A stretch of 57,392 nucleotides of DNA from assembly GCA_021323735.1 (NCBI GenBank), contig JAJPKM010000057.1, forward strand, positions 1 to 57,392, written 5' to 3'. The notes beneath the pieces are model-generated. The model did no database searches. It saw nothing but the letters and a program-made list of their open reading frames with translations, and was not told the DNA's origin. Shown in pieces: positions 15,410 to 32,979 of the stretch. The translations under genes and the position numbers were made by a program. Every line of letters begins with the position of its first letter. Position 1 is the first letter of the stretch. This DNA comes from Gammaproteobacteria bacterium. Its GTDB lineage: Bacteria; Pseudomonadota; Gammaproteobacteria; Steroidobacterales; Steroidobacteraceae.

Positions 15410-15766
15410 ATGTTGCGACAGTATTTGCCGATATTAATTTTCTTGAGTTTGGCCACCATTTTGGGGGTGGTGCTGTTCACCGTCGGTTGGGTGCTGGGGC
15501 CGCGCCGGCCCAATGCCGAAAAACTCTCGCCCTATGAATGCGGCTTCGAGGCCTTCGAGGATTCGCGCATGCGCTTCGACGTGCGCTACTACTTGGTCGC
15601 CATCATTTTCATCGTGTTCGACTTGGAGATCGCCTTTTTCTTCCCTTGGGCGGTGTCGCTCCAGATCACCGGCACCTTTGGTCTCCTGTCCATGTTGATC
15701 TTCGCGCTGGTGCTGGTCGTGGCGCTTGCCTATGACTACAAGAAGGGGGCGTTGGAATGGGATTAG
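15410..15766 (+). CDS. nuoA: NADH-quinone oxidoreductase subunit A
   Basis: First gene of complex I. 118 residues with three membrane helices (about 5-27, 60-82, 90-110). The conserved loop [20 protein letters not shown] carries the Glu-Cys-Gly motif at the quinone-site entrance. Start ATG 15410. The last ten bases overlap nuoB, starting a chain of overlaps that runs through most of the operon. Confidence 0.96.
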
Positions 15767-16236
15767 AGGCCGACAACCCGGTGCGCGGCTTCGAGGTGAC
15801 CACCGTCGACAAGCTCATCAATTGGGCGCGCACGGGGTCGCTCTGGCCGGTGACTTTCGGGCTGGCTTGCTGCGCGGTTGAAATGATGCATGCGGGCGCC
15901 TCGCGCTACGACCAGGATCGCTTCGGCATCATCTTCAGGCCAAGCCCGCGGCAATCCGACGTCATGATCGTTGCCGGCACCCTGGTGAATAAAATGGCGC
16001 CTGCGCTGCGCAAAGTGTACGACCAGATGACCGAGCCGCGATGGGTGATTTCCATGGGCTCCTGCGCCAATGGCGGCGGCTACTATCATTATTCGTATGC
16101 CGTGGTGCGGGGCTGCGATCGCATCGTGCCGGTGGATGTGTATGTGCCCGGATGCCCGCCGACCGCCGAGGCGCTGCTCTACGGCATCATTCAGCTGCAG
16201 AACAAGATCAGACGCAACAAGGCGATTATTCGATGA
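15757..16236 (+). CDS. nuoB: NADH-quinone oxidoreductase subunit B
   Basis: 159 residues. Carries the terminal N2 [4Fe-4S] cluster, with ligand cysteines in [19 protein letters not shown] and [11 protein letters not shown], including the characteristic adjacent Cys pair. It passes electrons to quinone at the NuoD/NuoB interface. ATG 15757 lies inside the end of nuoA. The stop overlaps the nuoC start as ATGA. Confidence 0.97.
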
Positions 16237-16988
16237 GTTCGGACCCAGTCAATTCGGCGGCGGTTGCAACACCGACCCGCCTGGAAGCGCTGGCTCAGGC
16301 GTTGAGCTTGGCTTTGCCGGGCAAGCTGACCCGCGCGCCGAATACGGCCGGCGAGCTTACCTTTGAGGCGACGCCTGAAGCGCTGTTGGGCGTCGCTCAA
16401 GTGCTGCGCGACGCGCCGGACCTTAAATTCGAGATGTGCATGGATGTATGCGGGGTGGATTACCTGTCGCATGGCCGGGGCGAATGGACCACCGAGAGTG
16501 CGACCTCTTCCGGGTTCAGCCGTGGCGTGGCGCGCGGCGCGCAGCGCCAGGGTGAGTTGCCGCCGGGACGCCGCTTTGCCGTGATCTACCACCTACTGTC
16601 GATTTCGCTGAATCAGCGGCTGCGATTGCGCGTGTACTGCGCCGACGACGAGCAGCCCATGGTCGACTCGGTGACGGGAATCTGGGCCGGCGCCAACTGG
16701 TTCGAGCGCGAGGCCTTCGACCTGTTCGGTATTCTATTCAAGGGGCATCCGGATCTGCGCCGTTTGCTCACCGACTACGGCTTCATCGGTCATCCGTTCC
16801 GCAAGGACTTTCCGCTGTCCGGAAATGTCGAAGTGCGCTACGACCCGGAGAAGGGCCGTGTGGTGTACCAGCCTGTGACCATCGATCCGCGGGTTCTCGT
16901 GCCCAAGGTCATCCGGCACGATAACCGCTACGATCCGCAGCTCACCAACGCCCCCGTTCACCCGAGCAGCGCGAAAACCGATGGCTGA
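16233..16988 (+). CDS. nuoC: NADH-quinone oxidoreductase subunit C
   Basis: 251 residues from ATG 16233, overlapping the nuoB stop. The 30-kDa subunit signature is near the C-terminal half: [20 protein letters not shown] and [16 protein letters not shown] Ser/Gly/Arg-rich insert (about 87-105, near [10 protein letters not shown]) interrupts the N-terminal part. It is a separate protein, not fused to NuoD. It is part of the peripheral arm connecting to NuoD. The end overlaps nuoD by 8 bp. Confidence 0.96.
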
Positions 16989-18234
16989 AATACGCAACTA
17001 CACCATGAACTTCGGCCCGCAGCATCCGGCCGCGCACGGTGTGCTGCGCCTGGTGCTCGAGTTGGACGGCGAGGTGATTCAGAAGGCCGATCCGCTTGTT
17101 GGTTTGCTGCCCCGAGCCACCGAGAAACTCGCCGAAAGCAAGCCGTTCAACCAGTCCATCGGCTACATGGACCGGCTCGACTACGTGTCGATGATGTGCA
17201 ACGAGCATGCGTACGTCATGGCCATCGAAAAGCTCCTAGGGCTGGAGCCGCCGGTGCGCGCGCAGTACATCCGCGTGATGTTCGATGAAATCACCCGGAT
17301 CCTGAATCATCTCATGTGGCTCGGCGCGCATGCCCTGGACATCGGCGCCATGACCGTGTTCCTGTATTGCTTCCGCGAGCGCGAAGACCTGATGGACTGC
17401 TACGAGGCGGTCTCGGGTACCCGCATGCATGCGACCTACTACCGGCCGGGCGGTGTGTACCGCGATCTGCCCGATGCCATGCCGCAATATCAGCCGTCGC
17501 AGTGGCGCAGCAAGAAGGACGTGGATCGCTTGAATTCCCGCCGCTCCGGCGGCTTGCTGGATTTCATTGCCGACTTTACCAAGCGCTTTCAGGCATGCGT
17601 CGATCAATACGAAACGCTGCTCACGGACAATCGCATTTGGAAGCAGCGCACCGTGAATATCGGCGTGGTCAGTCCGGAGCGCGCCATGCAGCTGGGATTC
17701 TCAGGTCCCATGCTGCGCGGTTCGGGCGTCGAATGGGACCTGCGCAAGAAGCAACCCTACGAAGTGTACGACCGGATCGACTTCGATATCCCGGTTGGGC
17801 TGAATGGCGATTGCTACGATCGGTACTTGGTGCGCATTGCCGAAATGCGCCAGTCGAATCGCATCATCGAGCAATGCGTGGCGTGGCTCCAGGCGAATCC
17901 CGGATCGGTGATGATCGATGACCGCAAGGTGCGGCCGCCGCGGCGCGAGCAGATGAAGGGAGACATGGAGTCCCTGATCCATCACTTCAAGCTCATGACC
18001 GAGGGCTATTGCGTGCCGGCAGGCGAGGTCTACGCCGCGGTCGAGGCGCCCAAGGGCGAACTCGGCGTGTACCTGGTGTCCGATGGGGCGAACAAGCCCT
18101 ACCGCCTCAAGGTTCGGGCGCCGGGATTTCCCCATCTGGCGGCGCTCGATGAAATGGTGCGCGGTCACATGCTGGCCGATGTCGTGGCGGTGATCGGCAC
18201 CCAGGATATTGTGTTCGGCGAGATCGACCGATGA
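16981..18234 (+). CDS. nuoD: NADH-quinone oxidoreductase subunit D
   Basis: 417 residues, the 49-kDa subunit that forms the quinone pocket with NuoB. Signatures are [50 protein letters not shown], and a C-terminal [15 protein letters not shown]. The start is ATG 16981. Its TGA at 18232-18234 overlaps an ATG at 18231 that opens a ten-codon frame into nuoE. Confidence 0.98.
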
Positions 18235-18263
18235 ACGGAGTGCTGGCGGTGATGGCGAAATGA
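18231..18263 (+). CDS. Ten-residue coupling frame between nuoD and nuoE
   Basis: ATG 18231 overlaps the nuoD stop (ATGA). The frame encodes [10 protein letters not shown] and stops at TGA 18261-18263, overlapping the nuoE ATG at 18260 (ATGA). This would keep terminating ribosomes moving to nuoE without a gap. It is too short to assess as a protein; the architecture is what supports it. Confidence 0.4.
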
Positions 18264-18745
18264 GCGCGCAATTATCGGATCACGTCCGTGCCGAGATCGA
18301 TCGGTGGGTGGCCAAGTTTCCCCCCGATCGCAAGCGCTCCGCGGTGATTTCGGCGCTGCACGCCGTGCAGCACGAGAACCAGGGATTCCTGACACCTGAA
18401 TTGATGGACGCGGTGGCCGCTTATTTAGGCCTGCCGAACATCCTGGTCTACGAAGTGGCGTCGTTTTATTCGATGTTCGAGACCAAGCCCGTCGGCCGGC
18501 ATCACATTTCAGTCTGTACCAATATTTCCTGCATGCTGCGCGGCTCGCAGGAGGTGGTGGACTACGTCGAGAAGAAGCTCGGCATCAAGACCGGCGAGAG
18601 CACCCCCGACGGACGGATCTATCTGAAGCGCGAAGAGGAATGCCTGGCGGCTTGCACCGGGGCACCAATGATGATGGTCGATCATGTGTTCCATGAGAAC
18701 CTGACGCCGCAGATCATCGATAAAGTATTGGACGAGTTGACGTGA
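18260..18745 (+). CDS. nuoE: NADH-quinone oxidoreductase subunit E
   Basis: 161 residues from ATG 18260 ([16 protein letters not shown]). The thioredoxin-like 24-kDa subunit holds the off-path N1a [2Fe-2S] cluster, with four cysteines in [11 protein letters not shown] and [10 protein letters not shown]. It works with NuoF in the NADH-oxidising module. The frame is open further upstream to 18209, but that part overlaps nuoD and is not family-like. Confidence 0.96.
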
Positions 18746-18758
18746 GCAGGTGCCGCTG

Positions 18759-20081
18759 ATGCCTTACGAACAGAACCTGGTGTTATTCGAGGCGCTGAAG
18801 TACGAGCGCCCGTGGACGCTGGAAGGCTATCGCCAATTCGGCGGCTACCAGGCCTGGGAAAAAATCCTGCGCGAGCAGACGCCGCGAGAGAAGATCATCG
18901 ATGAAGTCAAGGCTTCGGGGTTGCGGGGCCGCGGCGGCGCGGCGTTTCCGACGGGCGTGAAATGGAGTTTCATGCCGCGCACCTCGCCGGTGCAGAAGTA
19001 CGCCGTGTGCAACTCGGACGAATCGGAGCCCGGAACCTGCCACGACCGCGACATCCTGCGCTACAACCCGCATTCCGTGATCGAGGGCATGGCGATCGGC
19101 GGCTATGCCATGACGGCCACCGTCGGATACAACTACATCCGCGGTGAATTCCTGGCCGAGCCCATCCCGCGGTTCGAGGCGGCCCTGGCAGAGGCCTATG
19201 CCGCGGGCCTGCTGGGCAAGAATATCCTGGGCTCGGGCATCGGCTTTGATTTGCATACCTTCATCGGCGCCGGTGCGTACATCTGTGGCGAGGAAACCGC
19301 GCTGCTCGAGTCCCTGGAAGGCAAGCCCGGCAAGCCGCGCTTCAAGCCGCCGTTCCCGGCCAACTTCGGCTTGTTCGGCAAGCCCACCACCATCAACAAC
19401 ACCCAGAGCTTTGCCACGGTGCCCACCATCATGAGCAAAGGCGCGGCCTGGTTTGCCGGGTTGGGTCCCGTGAACTCGGGGGGCACCGCGATTTTCTCCG
19501 TCTCGGGCCACGTCGAGAGGCCGGGCAATTTCGAATTGCCGATGGGGATTCCTTTCAAGGATTTGATGGACCTGGTCGGCGGTGTGTGGAAGGGCCGCAA
19601 GTTGAAGGCCGTCATTCCCGGCGGGTCCTCCTGCATGGTCGTGCCCGCCGAGATCATGTGGAATACCAACATGGACTATGACTCGCTGAAGAAGGCCGGT
19701 TCCTCCTTCGGTACCGGTGCGGTCATCGTCATGGACGAGACCACCTGCATGGTGCGGGCGCTGGAGCGTCTGGCGCGTTTCTACATGTCGGAATCCTGCG
19801 GCCAGTGCACGCCCTGCCGCGAAGGCACGGGTTGGCTGGATCGCATGCTCAGGAGAATCATCGCGGGCGAAGGGCGCGGCGAGGATTTAGGTTTGCTGCT
19901 GGACGTGGCCAATCGCATCGAAGGGCACACGATCTGCGCCCTGGGTGACGCGGCCGCCTGGCCGGTACAGAGTTTCTTGAAGCATTTCAGGCCCGAATTC
20001 CAGTACATGATCGAGCACAAAGGTCGCTCCATCATGGAAGGCGCCACGCACTTGGACGGCCGTCCGGCCGTCGCGGCTTAA
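18759..20081 (+). CDS. nuoF: NADH-quinone oxidoreductase subunit F
   Basis: The 51-kDa subunit: binds NADH and FMN and the N3 [4Fe-4S] cluster. Features are the NADH-binding [22 protein letters not shown]-region [18 protein letters not shown], and the cluster motif [16 protein letters not shown] with a fourth Cys in [16 protein letters not shown] 18759 gives 440 residues and has GAGCAGG 8 nt upstream; GTG 18750 would add three residues. It follows nuoE closely. Confidence 0.97.
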
Positions 20082-20085
20082 AATC

Positions 20086-20736
20086 ATGGCAGACGATACG
20101 GTCAACATCGAAGTCAACGGCATACCCTTGAAGGCCCGCAAGGGTCAGATGATCATGCAGGTCACGGACCCGGCCGACATCTACATTCCGCGATTCTGCT
20201 ATCACGACAAGCTGACGGTCGCCGCCAACTGCCGCATGTGCCTGGTGGAAGTGGAAAAGGCGCCCAAGCCCCTGCCGGCCTGCGCCACTCCCGTCACCGA
20301 GGGCATGAAGGTATTCACCCGTTCGCCCAAGGCGGTGGCGGCACAGCGCGCGACCATGGAATTCCTGCTCATCAATCATCCGCTCGACTGCCCGATCTGC
20401 GATCAGGGTGGGGAGTGCGAGCTGCAGGATCTTGCCTTGGGGTACGGGCGCGACATTTCGCGTTTCAGCGAACGCAAGCGGGTGGTCAAGGACAAGAACT
20501 TAGGTCCCCTGGTTTCGACCGACATGACCCGCTGCATTCACTGCACGCGCTGCGTGCGTTTCGGTGCGGAAATCCAGGGCTACCCGCAGATGGGTGCGAC
20601 CGGCCGCGGCGAGCATATGGAAATCGGCACCTACATCGAACACAGCGTCGACCATGAATTGTCGGCCAACATCGTCGATCTGTGCCCGGTGGGCGCGCTC
20701 AACAACAAGCCCTTCCGCTACCATGCGCGCGCCTAG
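20086..20736 (+). CDS. nuoG: NuoG N-terminal part, ending at an internal TAG
   Basis: 216 residues covering the NuoG iron-sulfur region: N-terminal [2Fe-2S] ferredoxin fold (FCYHDKLTVAANCRMCLVE), the His-Cys3 site (HPLDCPICDQGGECELQD) and a CxxCxxC cluster site (CIHCTRCVRFG) followed by DLCPVGALNNKPF. The frame then meets TAG at 20734-20736, in the position where relatives read Ala-Arg-x-Trp-Glu; here it reads ARA-stop-EMT. A full NuoG is about 670-910 residues, so this is only the electron-transfer third. The next frame continues in phase. Confidence 0.9.
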   Translation: MADDTVNIEVNGIPLKARKGQMIMQVTDPADIYIPRFCYHDKLTVAANCRMCLVEVEKAPKPLPACATPVTEGMKVFTRSPKAVAAQRATMEFLLINHPLDCPICDQGGECELQDLALGYGRDISRFSERKRVVKDKNLGPLVSTDMTRCIHCTRCVRFGAEIQGYPQMGATGRGEHMEIGTYIEHSVDHELSANIVDLCPVGALNNKPFRYHARA

Positions 20737-20739
20737 GAA

Positions 20740-22245
20740 ATGACCCAGGCGGCGGTGATCTCGCCGCACGACGGCTTCGGCACCAACTTGTATGCACACG
20801 TGCTGCGCGGGAAATTGATGCGCATGGTGCCGCGCGAAAACGAGGAGATTAATGAAACCTGGATCGCGGACCGCGATCGCTTCGGTTTCGAGGGCATGTA
20901 TTCCAGCGATCGCGTATCTCAGCCCATGATGCGCGTCGACGGTGTCTTGCAGGCGGTGGATTGGGAGGTCGCGCTCACGGCGGCTGCCGAAGGGTTGCAA
21001 AAATCTGCCGCCGCGTCCAAAGCGGCGAGCGGATTTCTCGCCTCGCCGCTGGCGACCGTGGAGGAGCTGTACTTGTTGGCGCAAATCGCCCGTGGCTTAG
21101 GTACCGCCAACATCGACCATCGGTTGCGGCAGCTGGATTTCCGAGCCCAGGAACATGAAGCGCCGTATCCGCATCTCGGGATCAAGATTGCCGATGTCGA
21201 GCGCCTCGAAGGCATGCTGATCGTGGGTTCCGACGTTCGCCGGGAGATGCCCCTGCTGGCGCATCGCATTCGCAAGGCGGCGGTGAAGGGCGGAGCGCAA
21301 GTGGCTTTCTTGAATCCGCGCCGCTTCGAAATGATGTTTCCGGTCGCCGGATACCTGGCCGAGACCGACATGGTCGGCAGCCTCACCGCGTTGGTGCATG
21401 CGGCGGCGGGCGTCGCAGGAAGGCCGGTGCCGGCCGGCGTGGGCAACGCGACCGTGACCGACGCTCATCGGTCGGTGATTGCTGCGCTGTCTCATGGAGC
21501 GCGCCATGCGGTGATCTTGGGCACCCTGGCGCAGCGACACCCAGCCTATTCGCAGCTCAAGGCCTTGAGCGCCCTTCTCGCCGATTTGTGCGGCGCCAGC
21601 GTGGGCTGCATCACCGAGGGAGCCAACGCCGCGGGTGCGTACCTGGCGGGGGCCGTGCCGCATCGGAACCCTGGCGGTGCGCCGGCTGCGAGCGTGGGTT
21701 TATCGGCACGGCAGATGTTGGATACGCCGCTCAAGAGCTATGTGCTGTTCGGCGGCATCGACCCGGCGCAGGATCTGGCCGTCGATTCTGGGGCGCTGGC
21801 GTCGGCCGATCTGGTGATCGCGATCACCACCCATCTGCCCGAATCACTGCGCGGCATCGTGCATGTGGTTCTGCCTATAGGCTCGTTCGCCGAGACCTCG
21901 GGCACCTACGTGAATGCGGAAGGCCGCTGGCAGAGCTGGGCCGGCGCGGCGAAGCTTCCCGGTGAAAGCCGCCCAGGCTGGAAGGTCCTGAGAGTGCTCG
22001 CGAATTTATTGGGCTTGCAGGGTATCGACTACGACAGCTCGGATCAAATTCGCGATGCCCTGAAGAGCCTCTGCGGTGCGCGCATCGAGGCGACCGGCGA
22101 GGTTGCTCGGAGCGCAATTCCCAACGGCCAAGTGGCGGGCGGCTCCTGGGTGGATATTCCACCGTACCAAAGCGATGTGCTGGTGCGCGGTTCGGAAGCC
22201 TTGCAGAAGACCAAGGACGGGCGTCTGGCCCGGTCAGTGATCTGA
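20740..22245 (+). CDS. nuoG: NuoG C-terminal part (molybdopterin-oxidoreductase-like domain)
   Basis: 501 residues from ATG 20740, in the same phase as the previous piece and 3 bp after its TAG. It starts in the middle of the NuoG fold ([19 protein letters not shown], then [20 protein letters not shown]) and has the C-terminal family segment [20 protein letters not shown]. It could be made by re-initiation, TAG suppression, or not at all. Reading through the stop would give 719 residues, a normal single NuoG. No other degeneration is visible, so it may be a recent nonsense change, an assembly error or a true split gene. Confidence 0.85.
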
Positions 22246-22247
22246 TC

Positions 22248-23324
22248 ATGTGGGATTGGACGCCTATTCGCGACTGGCTCTCCGGCTACATCACGCCGTA
22301 CTGGACCTTCCCCGCGCTGACGGTGGTGCAGGCCCTGATCGTGATGATCGGCATCATCTTGGTGATGGCGGTGTACACGCTGGCCGAGCGCAAGGTCATC
22401 GGCTGGATGCAGTTGCGGCGCGGACCGAACCGCGTGAATTTGTTCTGGATTCCGGGCTTAGGCCAGCCGTTCGCCGATGTGGTCAAGCTCATTTTCAAGG
22501 AAATCCTCATCCCGGCGGATGCGAATGGATTTTTGTTCCGGGTGGCGCCGTTCCTGGCGCTGGTGCCGGCCCTCGGCATCTGGGCGGTCATTCCGCTGCG
22601 TCCCGAACATGCCTTCGCGAATATCGACGCCGGACTCCTGTACGTATTGGCGCTGACCTCGATGGGCGTCTACGGCATCATCCTGGCCGGATGGGCCGCG
22701 AACTCCAAATATGCCTTTTTGGGCGCGATGCGCTCCGCGGCGCAAATCGTCGCCTACGAAATCGCCATGGGCTTCGCGATGGTGGGTGTGCTCATGGCCT
22801 CGGGCAGTCTCAACATCGGCGAGATCATCCACGCGCAGCGGGGCTTGTTCGGCTGGAATTGGACCTGGCTGTTCCCGTTGTTCATCGTGTACTTCATCTC
22901 GGGCGTCGCGGAAACCAATCGGGCACCCTTTGACGTGGCGGAGGGCGAGTCGGAAATCGTCGCCGGATTTCATATCGACTACTCCGGCATGGCGTTCGCG
23001 CTGTTCTTCATCGCCGAATACGTCAACATGATTTTGATCTCGGCGCTGACCTCGATTTTCTTCTTTGGCGGATGGCTGTCGCCCTTCGATGGGTGGCTCT
23101 CGTCCGATTCGTGGTTGGCACAGCCGAGCTTCTTCTGGCTCGCGCCCAAGGTATTCTTCTTCATGTTCGTGTTTCTGTGGTTCCGCGCGACTTTTCCGCG
23201 CTACCGCTACGATCAAATCATGCGCCTGGGTTGGAAGGCGCTGATTCCTGTCACTCTGATTTGGCTATTGGTTGAGGGCATCATGGTGTACAGCCATGTC
23301 GGCCCCTGGAAGGGGCACCCGTAA
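22248..23324 (+). CDS. nuoH: NADH-quinone oxidoreductase subunit H
   Basis: 358 residues with about eight to nine membrane helices. It forms the quinone-chamber wall and proton path at the arm junction. Family motifs are [34 protein letters not shown], the acidic loop [20 protein letters not shown], and [20 protein letters not shown] 22248 lies 2 bp after the nuoG stop; its TAA overlaps the nuoI ATG (TAATG). Confidence 0.97.
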
Positions 23325-23812
23325 TGCAAGGTATCCGCAGCTTCATCAAGACGTTTCTGCTCTGGGAATTGTTGCAAGGCCTCTGGGTGACTTTGAAGAG
23401 CATGTTTCAGACCAAGATCACGCTCAACTATCCGGAAGAGAAGACACCGCAAAGCAACCGCTTCCGCGGGCTGCATGCTCTGCGGCGCTACCCTAACGGG
23501 GAAGAGCGCTGCATCGCCTGCAAGCTGTGCGAGGCGGTTTGTCCGGCGCTCGCCATCACCATCGAGTCGGACGTGGCCAGCGACGGTACGCGCCGCACCA
23601 CCCGGTACGACATCGACCTGTTCAAGTGCATCTACTGCGGCTTTTGCGAGGAAGCCTGCCCGGTCGACGCCATCGTGGAGACGCGGCTGCACGAATACCA
23701 CATGGAGAAGCGCGGCGAGAACATCATGAGCAAGGATAAGTTGCTCGGTATCGGCGAGCGCTACGAAGCCATGATTGCGGCGGACCGTGCCGCCGATGCG
23801 CGGTATCGCTGA
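23324..23812 (+). CDS. nuoI: NADH-quinone oxidoreductase subunit I
   Basis: 162 residues. Two ferredoxin-type [4Fe-4S] sites, [12 protein letters not shown] and [12 protein letters not shown], are the N6a and N6b relays between NuoG and NuoB. The N-terminal amphipathic segment (about 1-30) would dock on the membrane arm. ATG 23324 overlaps the nuoH stop by one base, and the stop overlaps nuoJ (TGATG). Confidence 0.98.
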
Positions 23813-24414
23813 TGTTTCCCACCATATTGTTTTTTATTTTTGCCGCCGTGCTCATCGGCGCGGCCTTAGGGGTGATCCTATCCCGCAATCCGGTGTACTC
23901 GGCGCTGCTCCTGGTGCTGTGCTTCTTCAACGCCTCCGTCATCTGGGTGCTGCTGGATGCCGAGTTCTTAGGGATAGTGCTGGTGCTGGTCTATGTCGGC
24001 GCCGTCATGGTGCTGTTCTTGTTCGTGGTCATGATGCTCGACCTGAATCTCGAGCGGCTGCGCCGTGAATTCGCCGGTTATTGGCCCTTGACCGTCGCGG
24101 TCGCTGGCTTCGCGGTGTTTGCCATGATCAACGTCATCGTCGTGAAGCATCTGGGCGGCGCGGGATTGCAGACCGCCCCGGCGCTTGCGGCGAATTATTC
24201 CAATACCCGCACCCTGGGCGTGGAGCTGTTCACCCGCTATGCCTATCCGTCCCAGGTTGCCGCGCTCATTTTGTTGGTGGCCAGCGTCGCGGCCATCGTG
24301 CTGACTCTGCGCCAGCGCAAGGGCGGCAAGCCTCAGGATATTGCGCAGCAGGTCGCGGTCCGTGCCAAGGACCGCGTGCGCATCGTCAAAATGGCCTCAG
24401 AGAAAAAGCTGTGA
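23812..24414 (+). CDS. nuoJ: NADH-quinone oxidoreductase subunit J
   Basis: 200 residues, five predicted helices. The third helix region [19 protein letters not shown] contains the pi-bulge segment typical of NuoJ. It contributes to the first proton channel with NuoA and NuoK. ATG 23812 overlaps the nuoI stop. The TGA at 24412-24414 overlaps the GTG of nuoK (GTGA). Confidence 0.96.
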
Positions 24415-24716
24415 TTTCCCTCACCCACGTGCTCGCCTTGTCCGGCGTCTTGTTCGCCATTGCGGTGGCCGGCGTGTTCTTGAATCGCAAGAACATCATC
24501 GTGCTGCTGATGTGCATCGAACTCATGCTGCTGGCGGTGAATTTCAATTTCGTGGCTTTCTCGCGTTTCCGCGGCGACATCAGCGGGCAGATATTCGTCT
24601 TTTTCATCCTGACCGTCGCGGCGGCCGAGGCCGCTATTGGCCTCGCGATTCTGGTGGTGTTGTTCCGCGAACGCAGCAGCATCGACGTCGAAGATCTCGA
24701 TACCCTTCAGGGCTAA
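24411..24716 (+). CDS. nuoK: NADH-quinone oxidoreductase subunit K
   Basis: 101 residues from GTG 24411 ([18 protein letters not shown]), overlapping the nuoJ stop. Three helices; membrane-embedded glutamates sit in [15 protein letters not shown] and [14 protein letters not shown]. This length matches the family (about 100). No ATG in the frame gives a sensible N-terminus, so the GTG start is preferred. TAA is followed one base later by the nuoL ATG. Confidence 0.95.
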
Positions 24717-24717
24717 G

Positions 24718-26676
24718 ATGGAAATACAGTCCATATATCTCACCATTGTCTTGTCGCCGCTGGTCGCGTGCATCATCGCCGGACTGTTCGGCAAGGTCAT
24801 CGGCAGAGTGGGTGCGCACAGCGTCACGATCCTGGGCGTGGGAATTTCCTGCGCGCTGTCCCTCTACGTGTTGTACCAGATGGTGTTCGAGGGCAGCCCC
24901 GAGTACAACGGTACGGTCTATACCTGGCTGGTGAGCGACGGGCTGCAGCTCAACGTCGGATTTCTCATCGATCATCTGTCCGCGATGATGATGGCGGTGG
25001 TGACCTTCGTCTCTCTGATGGTCCACATCTACACCATCGGCTACATGGCCGACGATGACGGTTATCAGCGCTTCTTCAGCTACATCTCCTTGTTCACCTT
25101 CTCCATGCTCATGCTGGTGATGGCGAATAATTTCCTCCAGCTATTCTTCGGCTCGGAGGCGGTGGGCGTGGTGTCGTACCTGCTGATCGGCTTCTGGTAC
25201 AAGCGTCAGTCGGCTATTTTCGCCAATCTCAAAGCATTCCTGGTCAATCGGGTGGGGGATTTCGGCTTCGTTCTCGGCATCGCCGCGGTACTGCGCTACA
25301 CCGGATCCTTGGACTATGCGACAGTGTTCTCGCACGCCGAACAAATCGCCGCGGCGCAGGTTCATATCACAGGCGCCGTCGCCTGGTCGGCCATCACCTT
25401 CACCTGCATTTGCCTGTTCATCGGCGCCATGGGCAAGTCGGCGCAGGTGCCGCTGCATATCTGGCTGCCCGATTCGATGGAGGGCCCGACACCCATCTCG
25501 GCACTGATCCACGCGGCCACCATGGTGACGGCCGGTATTTTCATGGTGGCGCGCATGTCCCCGCTGTTCGAACTGTCGGACACCGCGCTGTCGTTTGTGC
25601 TGGTCATCGGCTCTACCACGGCATTCTTCATGGGCCTCTTAGGCATCGTCGCCAACGACATCAAGCGGGTGGTGGCGTACTCGACGCTCTCGCAGCTTGG
25701 ATACATGACCGTGGCCCTCGGGGTGTCGGCGTATGGTGCCGGGATTTTTCACCTCATGACCCATGCCTTCTTCAAGGCGCTGCTGTTCCTGGCCGCAGGC
25801 TCGGTGATCATCGCCATGCACCATGAGCAGGACATGCGCAAGATGGGGGGCTTGAGGAAATATATGCCCATCACCTACTGGACTTGTCTGGTGGGGTGCC
25901 TGGCACTGATCGGTTTTCCCGGGACGTCCGGATTCTTCTCGAAGGACTCGCTGATCGATGCGGTGGGCGCCTCGCACCGGGTCGGCTCGGGATATGCGTA
26001 CTTCTGCGTGGTCACGGGTGTCTTCATCACCGCGCTGTACACCTTCCGCATGTTCATCATGACTTTTCTCGGCAAGGAGCGCATGGATCATCACACCCAG
26101 GAACATTTGCATGAAAGCCCGTGGGTGGTCACGGTGCCCCTGGTCTTGCTGGCGATACCCTCGGCGCTCATCGGCTGGTTCACCGTCAAGTCCATGCTGT
26201 TCGGCAAATTCTTCGAAGGCGCCATTCATGTCGCGCCGGCCAACAACGTGCTCGAGCATCTCGGCGAAGAATTTCACGGCCCCGGCGCATTCATCTTGAG
26301 TGCATTGCTGCAATTGCCGGTGTGGCTCGCGGGCTTAGGAGTGCTCACGGCCTACGTATTCTTCCACTGGAGGCCCGCGCTGGCCGATGCGGCGGAGGCG
26401 AGGTTCAAATGGCTGTACACCATCCTGGTGGATAAGTTCGGGTTCGACTGGTTCAATGAACACGTCATCATGGTGGGCGCCCGCCGGTTGGGCGGGGGAT
26501 TGTGGCGATTCGGCGATCAAGTCGTGATCGATGACGGTCTGGTGAACGGCAGCGCGCGCACCGTGGGTTGGTTGGGCTCGGTCATGCGCTATGCGCAGTC
26601 CGGATACCTGTATCACTACGCATTCGCCATGATCCTAGGCTTGGCGGGGCTCTTGATGTGGCTGATCTGGCGATGA
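24718..26676 (+). CDS. nuoL: NADH-quinone oxidoreductase subunit L
   Basis: 652 residues, antiporter-like distal proton pump with a long C-terminal lateral helix. Motifs include FLIDHLSAMMMAVVTFVS, the key Glu in LFFGSEAVGVVSYLLIGFW, GKSAQVPLHIWLPDSMEGPTP without its ends altered, and the helix-breaking HAATMVTAGIF. ATG 24718 follows nuoK by one base. The frame stays open upstream, but only inside nuoK. The stop overlaps nuoM (ATGA). Confidence 0.97.
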   Translation: MEIQSIYLTIVLSPLVACIIAGLFGKVIGRVGAHSVTILGVGISCALSLYVLYQMVFEGSPEYNGTVYTWLVSDGLQLNVGFLIDHLSAMMMAVVTFVSLMVHIYTIGYMADDDGYQRFFSYISLFTFSMLMLVMANNFLQLFFGSEAVGVVSYLLIGFWYKRQSAIFANLKAFLVNRVGDFGFVLGIAAVLRYTGSLDYATVFSHAEQIAAAQVHITGAVAWSAITFTCICLFIGAMGKSAQVPLHIWLPDSMEGPTPISALIHAATMVTAGIFMVARMSPLFELSDTALSFVLVIGSTTAFFMGLLGIVANDIKRVVAYSTLSQLGYMTVALGVSAYGAGIFHLMTHAFFKALLFLAAGSVIIAMHHEQDMRKMGGLRKYMPITYWTCLVGCLALIGFPGTSGFFSKDSLIDAVGASHRVGSGYAYFCVVTGVFITALYTFRMFIMTFLGKERMDHHTQEHLHESPWVVTVPLVLLAIPSALIGWFTVKSMLFGKFFEGAIHVAPANNVLEHLGEEFHGPGAFILSALLQLPVWLAGLGVLTAYVFFHWRPALADAAEARFKWLYTILVDKFGFDWFNEHVIMVGARRLGGGLWRFGDQVVIDDGLVNGSARTVGWLGSVMRYAQSGYLYHYAFAMILGLAGLLMWLIWR

Positions 26677-28190
26677 TGCTAAGCGCTCACCTTCTCTCGT
26701 GGTTGATCTGGGTGCCCGTCATCGGCGGCTTCGTGGTGCTGGGTTTGGGGCATCGAGCCACGCTGGCCAAATGGCTGTCATTGGCGGTCAGCGGGCTGGC
26801 GTTGCTGTTGAGCATACCGCTCTGGACCTGGTTCAAACCGGGTACGGCGCAAATGCAGTTCGTCGAGCGCTCGCCGTGGATCTCAACCATTCACTCCGAG
26901 TTCTACATCGGCGTCGACGGCATCTCGATGCCGCTGATTCTGCTGACGACGTTCACCACGGTGCTCATCGTGATCGCCAGCTGGCAGAACGTCGAGAAGC
27001 GCGTGGCACAGTATTTCGCCGCCTTCCTCATCTTGGAAGGCCTGATGATCGGCGTCTTCGCCGCGCTCGACGGCGTGCTGTTCTACGTGTTCTGGGAGGC
27101 GATGCTGCTGCCGATGTTCATCATCATCGGCGTCTGGGGCGGACCCCGCCGGGTCTACGCCACCATCAAGTTCTTCCTGTATACCTTCATCGGCTCGCTG
27201 CTGATGCTGGTTGCACTCATTTATCTGTACCTCAAGTCCGGCAGCTACGAACTCGCGGTGTTTCAGCGCATGCCGCTCACCATCACCGAGCAGACGTTCA
27301 TCTTCCTGGCCTTCTTCGCCGCCTTCGCGGTCAAGGTGCCGATGTTCCCGGTGCATACCTGGTTGCCGGATGCGCACGTGGAAGCACCCACCGGGGGTTC
27401 CGTGGTACTGGCGGCCATCATGTTGAAGATGGGCGGATACGGCTTTCTGCGCTTCTCGCTGCCCATTGCCCCGGATGCCAGCCGCGAGCTGGATTGGCTG
27501 ATCATTGCGCTGTCGTTGATCGCCGTGGTGTATATCGGCTTCGTGGCCCTCGCGCAGCGCGACATGAAGAAGCTCATCGCCTACTCGTCGATTGCGCACA
27601 TGGGCTTCGTCACGTTAGGGATGTTCATCGGATTTCAGATCGCGGCGCACACGGGCAAGACCAGCGGCATCGCACTGGGCTTGGACGGCGCGGTGGTGCA
27701 AATGCTGTCGCACGGCCTGGTGTCGGGCGCCATGTTCCTCTGCGTGGGCGTGATGTACGACCGCGTGCACAGCCGGGAAATCTCCGCCTATGGCGGCGTG
27801 ATCAATACCATGCCGAAATTTGCCGCCTTCATGGTGCTGTTTGCGCTGGCAAACTCCGGTTTGCCGGGAACCTCGGGGTTCGTGGGAGAGTTCCTGGTCA
27901 TACTGGCCTCCTTCAAAGCCAATGTCTGGTATGCCTTCCTGGCGGGCACGACGCTGATTCTCGGCGCGGCCTATACGCTTTGGCTGGTGAAGCGCGTAAT
28001 TTTCGGCGAAATCGCCAACGACAAGGTGGCGGCGCTCAAGGACGTGAACGGCCGTGAGTTCCTGGTGCTGGGCGTGCTCGCGGTGGCCGTGCTGCTGGTG
28101 GGTATGTGGCCGGCACCGTTGCTCGACGTGATGCGGGCATCGACGCAGCATTTAGCCGAGCAGCTGCTCATCTCCAAGATTGCTCCATAA
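26673..28190 (+). CDS. nuoM: NADH-quinone oxidoreductase subunit M
   Basis: 505 residues from ATG 26673; ATG 26676 is the next codon. Antiporter-like proton-pumping subunit with 14 expected helices. It has FYIGVDGISMPLILLTTF, the conserved Glu in YVFWEAMLLPMFIIIG, the Lys helix in AVKVPMFPVHTWLPDAHVEA, and AYSSIAHMGFVTLG. It overlaps the nuoL stop and is followed by nuoN after 7 bp. Confidence 0.97.
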   Translation: MMLSAHLLSWLIWVPVIGGFVVLGLGHRATLAKWLSLAVSGLALLLSIPLWTWFKPGTAQMQFVERSPWISTIHSEFYIGVDGISMPLILLTTFTTVLIVIASWQNVEKRVAQYFAAFLILEGLMIGVFAALDGVLFYVFWEAMLLPMFIIIGVWGGPRRVYATIKFFLYTFIGSLLMLVALIYLYLKSGSYELAVFQRMPLTITEQTFIFLAFFAAFAVKVPMFPVHTWLPDAHVEAPTGGSVVLAAIMLKMGGYGFLRFSLPIAPDASRELDWLIIALSLIAVVYIGFVALAQRDMKKLIAYSSIAHMGFVTLGMFIGFQIAAHTGKTSGIALGLDGAVVQMLSHGLVSGAMFLCVGVMYDRVHSREISAYGGVINTMPKFAAFMVLFALANSGLPGTSGFVGEFLVILASFKANVWYAFLAGTTLILGAAYTLWLVKRVIFGEIANDKVAALKDVNGREFLVLGVLAVAVLLVGMWPAPLLDVMRASTQHLAEQLLISKIAP

Positions 28191-28197
28191 GGCAAGT

Positions 28198-29658
28198 ATG
28201 ACCGCAGGCGTATTCAATCCGGGTTTCTTCAATTCAGGCCTGGCGTATGCGTGGCCCGAGATTTTCCTGTCATTGGCGGCATGCGTCATCTTGGTGCTGG
28301 ACCTGCTGCTCAACGACACTCAGCGGCGCTGGAGCGGCGTGCTGGCCGTGGTCAGCTTAGTTGTAACAGCGGTGCTGGTGCTCGCGCATCCGGTAGCTAC
28401 CCGTGTCGTCGCCCTGGGCGGATTGTTCGAACTGGATCGAATGGCCCAGATCCTGAAGGCCGTGACGCTGCTGACGGTGGCAGCCGTATTCGTTTATTCG
28501 ACCGACTATTTGCAGCGGCGCGACATCTTCAAAGGCGAGTACTTCGTCCTCGGACTGTTTGCCACCGTGGGGGGCATGGTGCTCATCTCCGCGGGCAGCC
28601 TGATCACCCTGTACTTGGGATTGGAGCTCATGTCCCTGTGTCTGTACGCCATGGTGGCGTTCGACCGCGACTCAGGCATTGCCGCCGAGTCGGCGATCAA
28701 GTACTTCGTCTTAGGTTCCATGGCGTCGGGAACCCTGCTGTACGGTATGTCGATCATCTACGGTGTAACGGGCAGCTTGGAACTTGCCGGCATTGCCGGT
28801 GTGGCCAGCAACGCGGCCATCGCGGGCAATATCGGCCTGCTGTTCGGCGTCGCCTTCCTCATTGTCGGCGTGGGCTTCAAATTCGGTGCGGTACCCTTTC
28901 ATATGTGGATACCGGATGTGTACGAAGGTTCACCGACGTCCGTCACCGTTTTCATTGGAACCGCGTCCAAGCTTGCCGCATTCGCGCTGGCCATGCGGTT
29001 GCTGCCGGAGGCATTGGGCGCCGCCCAGACGGATTGGAGCCAGATGTTGGCGGTACTGGCCGTGTTGTCGATGGCGATCGGCAACATCGTCGCCATTGCG
29101 CAGACGAATTTGAAGCGCATGCTGGCGTATTCGACGATTTCGCATGTGGGCTTCGTGCTGCTTGGAATCCTCTCCGGTACGGCGCAGGGCTACCAGGCTT
29201 CCATGTTCTACATGATCAGCTACGTGATTGTCGCGGCCGGCGCCTTCGGCATGATATTGCTGTTGGCCAGAGAGGGTTTCGAAGCCGACAAAATCACCGA
29301 CTTCAAGGGCTTGAATGCCAGAAGCCCCTGGTTCGCCGGCATGATGGCCATCCTGATGTTCAGCTTGGCGGGACTGCCGCCGTTCATCGGATTCTGGGCA
29401 AAGCTGGGCGTGATCCAAGCAGTTCTCGGTGTGCATTTCACCTGGCTTGCCGTGGTCGCCGTGCTGTTCTCGGTGGTTGGGGCATTTTTCTATTTGCGAA
29501 TCGTCAAGCTGATGTACTTCGACGAGCCCACCGATACCGCGGTGATCGGCGGCTCGGTGCTGATGCGCACGATGCTGAGCGCCAACGCGCTGCTGGCGTT
29601 CGGGCTGGGCGTCATTCCGGGATCACTGCTGCAGATTTGCCAGCGAGCGTTGCAGTAG
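28198..29658 (+). CDS. nuoN: NADH-quinone oxidoreductase subunit N
   Basis: 486 residues from ATG 28198 (MTAGVFNPGFFNSGLAYAWP), the last complex I gene. It has the antiporter-like core with the Glu in YLGLELMSLCLYAMVAF, the Lys region GFKFGAVPFHMWIPDVYEGS and AYSTISHVGFVLLG. AAGG just upstream is the ribosome site; TTG 28180 would place the start inside nuoM. No clear terminator follows, but a 20-bp tandem repeat does. Confidence 0.97.
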   Translation: MTAGVFNPGFFNSGLAYAWPEIFLSLAACVILVLDLLLNDTQRRWSGVLAVVSLVVTAVLVLAHPVATRVVALGGLFELDRMAQILKAVTLLTVAAVFVYSTDYLQRRDIFKGEYFVLGLFATVGGMVLISAGSLITLYLGLELMSLCLYAMVAFDRDSGIAAESAIKYFVLGSMASGTLLYGMSIIYGVTGSLELAGIAGVASNAAIAGNIGLLFGVAFLIVGVGFKFGAVPFHMWIPDVYEGSPTSVTVFIGTASKLAAFALAMRLLPEALGAAQTDWSQMLAVLAVLSMAIGNIVAIAQTNLKRMLAYSTISHVGFVLLGILSGTAQGYQASMFYMISYVIVAAGAFGMILLLAREGFEADKITDFKGLNARSPWFAGMMAILMFSLAGLPPFIGFWAKLGVIQAVLGVHFTWLAVVAVLFSVVGAFFYLRIVKLMYFDEPTDTAVIGGSVLMRTMLSANALLAFGLGVIPGSLLQICQRALQ

Positions 29659-30507: not shown

Positions 30508-32193
<1,686 letters not shown>

Positions 32194-32197
<4 letters not shown>

Positions 32198-32979
32198 TTT
32201 TTCCTCGACGCTACACGGCGCCGCTTCGCCGCCGCATCCCTCTGCCGCTTTCTCTGTGATCGGCCAGTCGATGCAAGCGCGTGCGCTTTTTCCATGTGGT
32301 CGGTACCTGGGCAGTATTTCCGACTTGGCTTCCCAGGCCCTTGGCGCTTGATCCTGAAAAATCTCTGGCATGACGGCAGTGCGCAGCGTCCGACCTCAGT
32401 AAGATCGCCCTGCGCGCTCTCTGTTAGGAGCAACGCCGCCGATACTGCCCAATCTTTGCGATCGTTCGCGCCCGGAACCCTCCAGCCCATAGAGGCGCGG
32501 CCGGATTTATCGAACTTCAAAGTCGCGTAGAGCGCGAGATTGGACTGTTCATCGATATCTCGAATGCCGCTTAGAAACTTCGAGAGGGGCAGCAGCCCTT
32601 TGGAGGCAGCATCCAGCACCTCCCTGGCATAGCTGCGCTGGGCCTCAACACTCTCCCAAAACTGCGCCAATGCAAATTCGCGCGGCGCCCTTACGAGTTC
32701 CTTAGTTTTAGGGTGATTGCAGAGATACAATTCCACGCCGTTGTCGTCGAACGCTACGTCCAGCATGTCAGCGTCGCTACTTAGCGGATGCAGATCTACC
32801 TCAGGTTGCACATCGCCGTTCGCAAACGCAATGACGCCATCGACTATGTTGTCCGGCACGAAGCCAGCACCGAAGCTCGTTCCGAGCTGAAAGTCGATGT
32901 GATTTGGGCTGTCGGAACGCTTTCCGGCACCGTCGTCGGTCTTCTTTGAATCACTACTCGCGAGCCTGGCCTCAATCAT
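32194..32979 (-). CDS. Hypothetical protein with C-terminal zinc-finger-like motif
   Basis: 261 residues from the ATG at 32979 (MIEARLASSDSKK); the frame is open to 33075. No N-terminal fold recognised. Near the C-terminus CALPSCQRFFRIKRQ and RKYC, followed by a basic stretch, resemble the CGNR-type zinc finger (Cys-x4-Cys, then Cys-x3-His), suggesting nucleic-acid binding. It is translationally coupled to the integrase, so it may be an accessory or directionality factor; that role is inference from position only. Confidence 0.6.

Follow-up and report, generated by a model that had tools for sequence, protein, structure and literature searches.

The gene for NuoG, subunit G of NADH-quinone oxidoreductase (complex I), is interrupted in this uncultured gammaproteobacterium by one in-frame stop codon, which is probably a recent and ordinary amber mutation, a single-base change in a conserved tryptophan codon, or else a strain variant. 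The gene occupies positions 20086–22245 on the forward strand of the window, by which we mean the whole stretch of DNA analysed: 57,392 bases that make up the entire contig C1 of a draft genome (58 contigs, 4.19 Mb, 95.9% complete). The TAG lies at 20734–20736 and is followed by GAA and then by an ATG at 20740. A sequence-only reading of this DNA had described a nuoG split by a single in-frame TAG, with pieces of 216 and 501 residues in the same phase and 719 residues on read-through. The open reading frames bear this out, since both lie in one frame and are joined into 719 residues when the TAG is read through.

The two pieces of nuoG and their operon

The 5′ piece (20086–20736, forward strand, 216 residues) carries the 2Fe-2S, NADH-G 4Fe-4S and Fer4_Nqo3 domains of Pfam, and the 3′ piece, counted from the ATG (20740–22245, forward strand, 501 residues), carries Fer4_NDSU1-like and molybdopterin-oxidoreductase-like domains. 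Both match the NuoG profile TIGR01973 on consecutive stretches, the first piece on profile positions 1–208 (357.5 bits) and the second on 213–606 (208.8 bits), and each alone scores below the cut-off of 470.05 bits. The break falls between Pfam domains, with the Fer4_Nqo3 match ending at residue 205 and the next match beginning at residue 228, which is residue 10 of the second piece. Eleven cysteines and His98 of the first piece are conserved in the aligned relatives, one of which is incomplete at three of these positions. From motif knowledge, these are presumably the ligands of the iron–sulphur clusters of this piece. The second piece has three cysteines, which vary among relatives.

In its domains, its operon and its expected iron–sulphur ligands, the gene corresponds to the known NuoG, NDUFS1 and Nqo3 subunits, and it differs from them in the stop codon between its two halves. 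The HoxU model NF005745 also matches residues 7–208 of the first piece, with 136.9 bits against a cut-off of 333. HoxU of bidirectional hydrogenases is a stand-alone protein that resembles the first nuoG piece, to the extent of this below-cut-off match, and is an evolved separate subunit.

The nuo operon extends from nuoA (15410) to nuoN (29658). Pfam and NCBIfam matches identify nuoA, nuoB, nuoC, nuoD, nuoE and nuoF upstream of nuoG (15410–20081, forward strand) and nuoH, nuoI, nuoJ, nuoK, nuoL, nuoM and nuoN downstream of it (22248–29658, forward strand). The sequence-only reading had judged the other nuo genes to look functional. By family search NuoA–F and NuoH–N are indeed open frames, and such matches speak for the presence of these subunits rather than for their activity. 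Among named genomes, those nearest in the nuoG region are drafts labelled Gammaproteobacteria or Proteobacteria, followed by Steroidobacteraceae, and several of the nearest have bog or palsa in their isolate names. A plasmid search returned distant homologs only. Just past the operon, a 602-residue open reading frame on the minus strand (window 30563–32371) holds Resolvase, Recombinase and zinc-ribbon domains, and its end overlaps a tRNA-Met gene (30508–30584). It is possibly an element inserted at this tRNA.

The codon in relatives and the age of the stop

NuoG protein was matched in 58 of the 60 genomes searched, this genome included, and 29 relatives were fetched as loci and aligned. All 29 carry TGG at the stop position and ATG two codons on, so that TGG-GAR-ATG is the state of the relatives against TAG-GAA-ATG here. 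It follows that the methionine at 20740 predates the stop, which is the one new feature. The TGG expected in place of the TAG, one base away, stands in every aligned relative. A strict DNA pattern applied to 396 genomes of the order (this one included) found TGG in 88 and TAG in this genome alone; in none of the 396 is the tryptophan position TAA or TGA. No strict pattern of the three matched in the remaining 307 genomes, which are uninformative; the pattern sees only the 88 undamaged nuoG genes and would miss a gene split by other codons or at another place. Within this scope, a nuoG split kept across species was not found. Among the matches listed from the 60 genomes searched, no other genome has a stop inside its best NuoG match, and lower-scoring matches with an internal stop occur, among those listed, in G039 (TAG) and G024 (TGA).

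We then compared substitution rates on the two sides of the stop. The nearest relative gives dN/dS values of 0.028 in the first piece and 0.124 in the second, both close to the bottom of the range of the 36 pairs tested. The eight pairs that include this genome span 0.028–0.078 in the first piece and 0.124–0.218 in the second, within the range of all 36 pairs (0.025–0.097 and 0.121–0.243, respectively). At columns otherwise invariant among 21 same-genus sequences, each piece holds a single substitution unique to this genome, against 0–2 (first piece) and 0–7 (second piece) in the other sequences. Relaxed selection after the stop was detected in neither half by dN/dS or by unique substitutions, and a very recent stop would look alike; with dS at about 0.5–1.5, the pairs are too deep to date the stop further, and very recent relaxation is invisible to the dN/dS test.

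With dN/dS unraised in both halves, the stop is of recent date unless selection still acts on both. Since the residue lost to the stop is present in all 29 aligned relatives and dN/dS is unraised, the split is no chance pattern of open reading frames. The sequence-only reading had also argued against long-standing decay, and it is supported in this by dN/dS on both sides of the stop and by the family matches of the other nuo genes. We infer that the stop is young, and that it is either a genuine mutation or a strain variant present in the population that was sampled.

A possible two-part NuoG by re-initiation

Four options had been listed from the letters of the DNA: a recent nonsense mutation, an assembly error, stop suppression, and a functional two-part NuoG made by re-initiation. 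The recent nonsense mutation fits best, the two-part NuoG is possible, and general stop suppression is disfavoured. On the preferred reading, a single-base change from TGG to TAG would have fallen at the border of the iron–sulphur and molybdopterin-like halves of NuoG. Ribosomes ending at the TAG might resume, with a lower yield, at the ATG that follows after 3 bases, and the cell would then make pieces of 216 and 501 residues, which could assemble or fail to do so. Failing such a restart, complex I would be inactive, and another NADH dehydrogenase, of which an NDH-2-like domain in the genome may be a part, would have to take over.

A working two-part NuoG, in which translation stops at the TAG, re-initiates at ATG 20740 and places both pieces in complex I, is unlikely, although several features of the gene would suit it. 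The break lies between Pfam domains; all 11 cysteines and His98 lie in the first piece, the three cysteines of the second being variable; and dN/dS is unraised in both parts. The gap of 3 bases between stop and ATG also falls within the range of the seven listed native nuo junctions (−10 to +4, by the start codons of the list of open reading frames). This closeness may, however, be luck and is weak evidence, since 14 of the 202 ways in which one base change could create a stop in nuoG would leave an ATG within two codons, and such an arrangement is therefore not very rare. Shine-Dalgarno pairing is poor at a usable distance: in the stretch from −18 to −4, ATG 20740 pairs more weakly than 65 of the 66 internal ATGs. 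When the last three bases before the start are included, its pairing reaches −4.2 kcal/mol and touches the start codon itself, and a Shine-Dalgarno pairing that does so is too close to be usable. The native starts of nuoG and nuoH are also weak in this respect (−1.7 and −2.4). The occurrence of the TAG in one genome only counts further against a two-part protein, as does the age of the methionine, which gives no sign of adaptation to a split.

Known cases of re-initiation and of split subunits offer partial parallels. In the E. coli reporter described in PMC2268962, re-initiation falls by half when the gap between stop and start grows from 1 to 4 bases, and a gap of 40 bases reduces it to background. 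The termination–re-initiation pairs treated there resemble nuoG in the spacing of a few bases between stop and start, whereas a restart in nuoG would have to proceed without a Shine-Dalgarno sequence at a usable distance. A precedent for a divided subunit is found in Euglena gracilis, where the passages of PMC10884005 on this subunit give NDUFS1 of complex I as two subunits, NDUFS1A and NDUFS1B (chain 8iuf_1A), likewise separated roughly into an iron–sulphur and a molybdopterin-like half. As described in the same passages, the Euglena parts are settled subunits with added contacts, and their break lies inside subdomain II, somewhat further on than the break in nuoG. Here, by contrast, the split is one base change seen in the DNA of one bacterial genome. 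The nuoG passages of PMC3661481, PMC4072538 and PMC8762328 do not describe a split bacterial nuoG; those of PMC3661481 report that nuoG insertions in Legionella cause severe growth defects outside the host cell.

It is improbable, in our estimate, that one point mutation at the border of the NuoG halves created a working two-gene NuoG, re-initiated at a pre-existing methionine, and that this genome is a snapshot of the first step toward split complex I subunits of the Euglena type. If both pieces are made and assembled, a core complex I subunit would be splittable by one base change with its function kept, and the origin of split respiratory subunits would become testable in bacteria. An ordinary stop would add one nonsense allele to those of draft genomes, with the warning that gene-calling software would here predict two truncated NuoG proteins.

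Possible consensus artefact, possible complex I decay and the decoding of TAG

An assembly or strain artefact, in which TGG is the codon of most cells and a minority or wrong base entered the consensus, is likewise a doubtful account of the stop. The assembly is a draft in 58 contigs and the TAG is confined to one genome, both as an artefact would have it. We compared 28 contig ends and found exact 107-base overlaps at C31/C36, C5/C7 and C1/C6; C12 and C13 have identical first 107 bases, and the overlap of C21 and C16 is 28 bases long. Positions 1–107 of the window match, as reverse complement, the opening 107 bases of contig C6. The 107-base overlaps point to k-mer (de Bruijn) assembly of short reads, in which isolated consensus substitution errors should be uncommon. 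A long-read basecalling error was set aside on the same ground. Assembly error had been one of the options of the sequence-only reading, and of its two forms a random base error is made less likely by this mark of short reads, whereas a strain variant is still conceivable.

A second isolated premature stop lends the artefact some weight. The ftsK gene of this genome has an in-frame TGA (L136:5873–5875, contig C5) at residue 704 of the frame as read, between the motor and gamma domains of Pfam, where glycine stands in 22 of 23 aligned relatives and a gap in the other. In other genomes, the ftsK match of G007 has a TAA close to its N-terminal end, and G013 has a TGA in a weak partial match. A premature stop in ftsK makes a genome-wide cause (strain mixture, a consensus fault or unknown suppression) less remote. 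The cut of FtsK in the linker between motor and gamma domains might also mean that the lineage tolerates splits at domain borders.

A wider survey of the genome argues against an artefact. In a protein comparison with a same-genus sister (G008), covering 142 genes one way and 145 the other, nuoG and ftsK were the only internal stops accepted in this genome and none was accepted in the sister, further asterisks on both sides having been dropped by eye as upstream start extensions or shadow frames. Since nuoG was sampled because the finding pointed to it, the unbiased count of broken genes is one. A coding-score scan gave 11 candidates in the first 396 kb of this genome, 12 in another 769 kb of it and 30 in 1.10 Mb of the sister. 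Per base, this genome is not above the sister, in a comparison where few candidates were resolved by Pfam and the 30 of the sister were left unscanned. By Pfam, the 11 candidates of the first 396 kb are mostly borders between genes, one being ftsK and one nuoG; no Pfam family was found for either side of candidate L123 or for the downstream side of L140. Five of the 12 candidate pairs in the 769-kb set were scanned, of which L214, L212 and L215 (minus strand) are gene borders, and no Pfam family was found for the pairs L265 and L199.

The stop could also be a first step in the decay of complex I following a change of life-style, which we consider quite unlikely. An NDH-2-like protein might replace complex I in such a case, and an NDH2_C domain is present in a 758-residue frame of the same genome. 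The name NDH-2 is tentative, given the length of this frame and the behaviour of the NDH2_C model, which misses E. coli and matched in 4 of 14 control genomes. Decay is opposed by the other nuo genes, which are open frames by family search, and by the dN/dS of nuoG, which is not raised.

As far as this can be tested, TAG terminates translation in this organism. The gene for release factor 1, prfA, is present and has no stop inside. For the codons at gene ends, 93 ortholog pairs between this genome and the same sister were chosen by score; the 77 pairs ending within 8 residues of each other were used, and the 16 with differing ends were left out of the stop count. These 77 ortholog-supported ends in this genome comprise 40 TGA, 26 TAG and 11 TAA. 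None of the 43 tRNA matches, two of which are repeats in contig overlaps, has a CUA anticodon. Internal stops are absent from all 57 ABC_tran matches, and 1 of 28 Pyr_redox_2 matches holds a TAG, in a weak match under the cut-off. Numerous in-frame TAG codons in conserved genes were not found among the 142 compared, where nuoG (TAG) and ftsK (TGA) were the only cases accepted. Recoding or general amber suppression is disfavoured by prfA, the 26 of 77 TAG ends, the lack of a CUA tRNA among those matched and the stop-free ABC_tran matches, and the first three of these likewise weigh against the stop suppression listed by the sequence-only reading, taken as a general trait.

Programmed or general read-through of the TAG by a suppressor tRNA or recoding, giving full-length NuoG, is therefore very unlikely: the frame is conserved on both sides of the TAG and a suppressor could be hidden among the tRNAs missing from the assembly, tRNA-Trp included, but the prfA gene without a stop, the TAG gene ends, the stop-free ABC_tran matches, the TGA rather than TAG of ftsK and the lack of a stop in the strict pattern of any other of the 396 genomes all stand against it.

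The tRNA set of the assembly is incomplete, tRNA-Trp and tRNA-Thr(ggt) not being among the tRNAs found; these two were perhaps lost in a repeat gap. Contig C18 stops just past tRNA-Tyr and tRNA-Gly(tcc), at the end of L132. A tRNA called Ser(cga) on contig C55 (L125:8360–8434) is 75 bases long, which is short for a tRNA-Ser, and a second tRNA-Ser(cga), in L127, has 93 bases.
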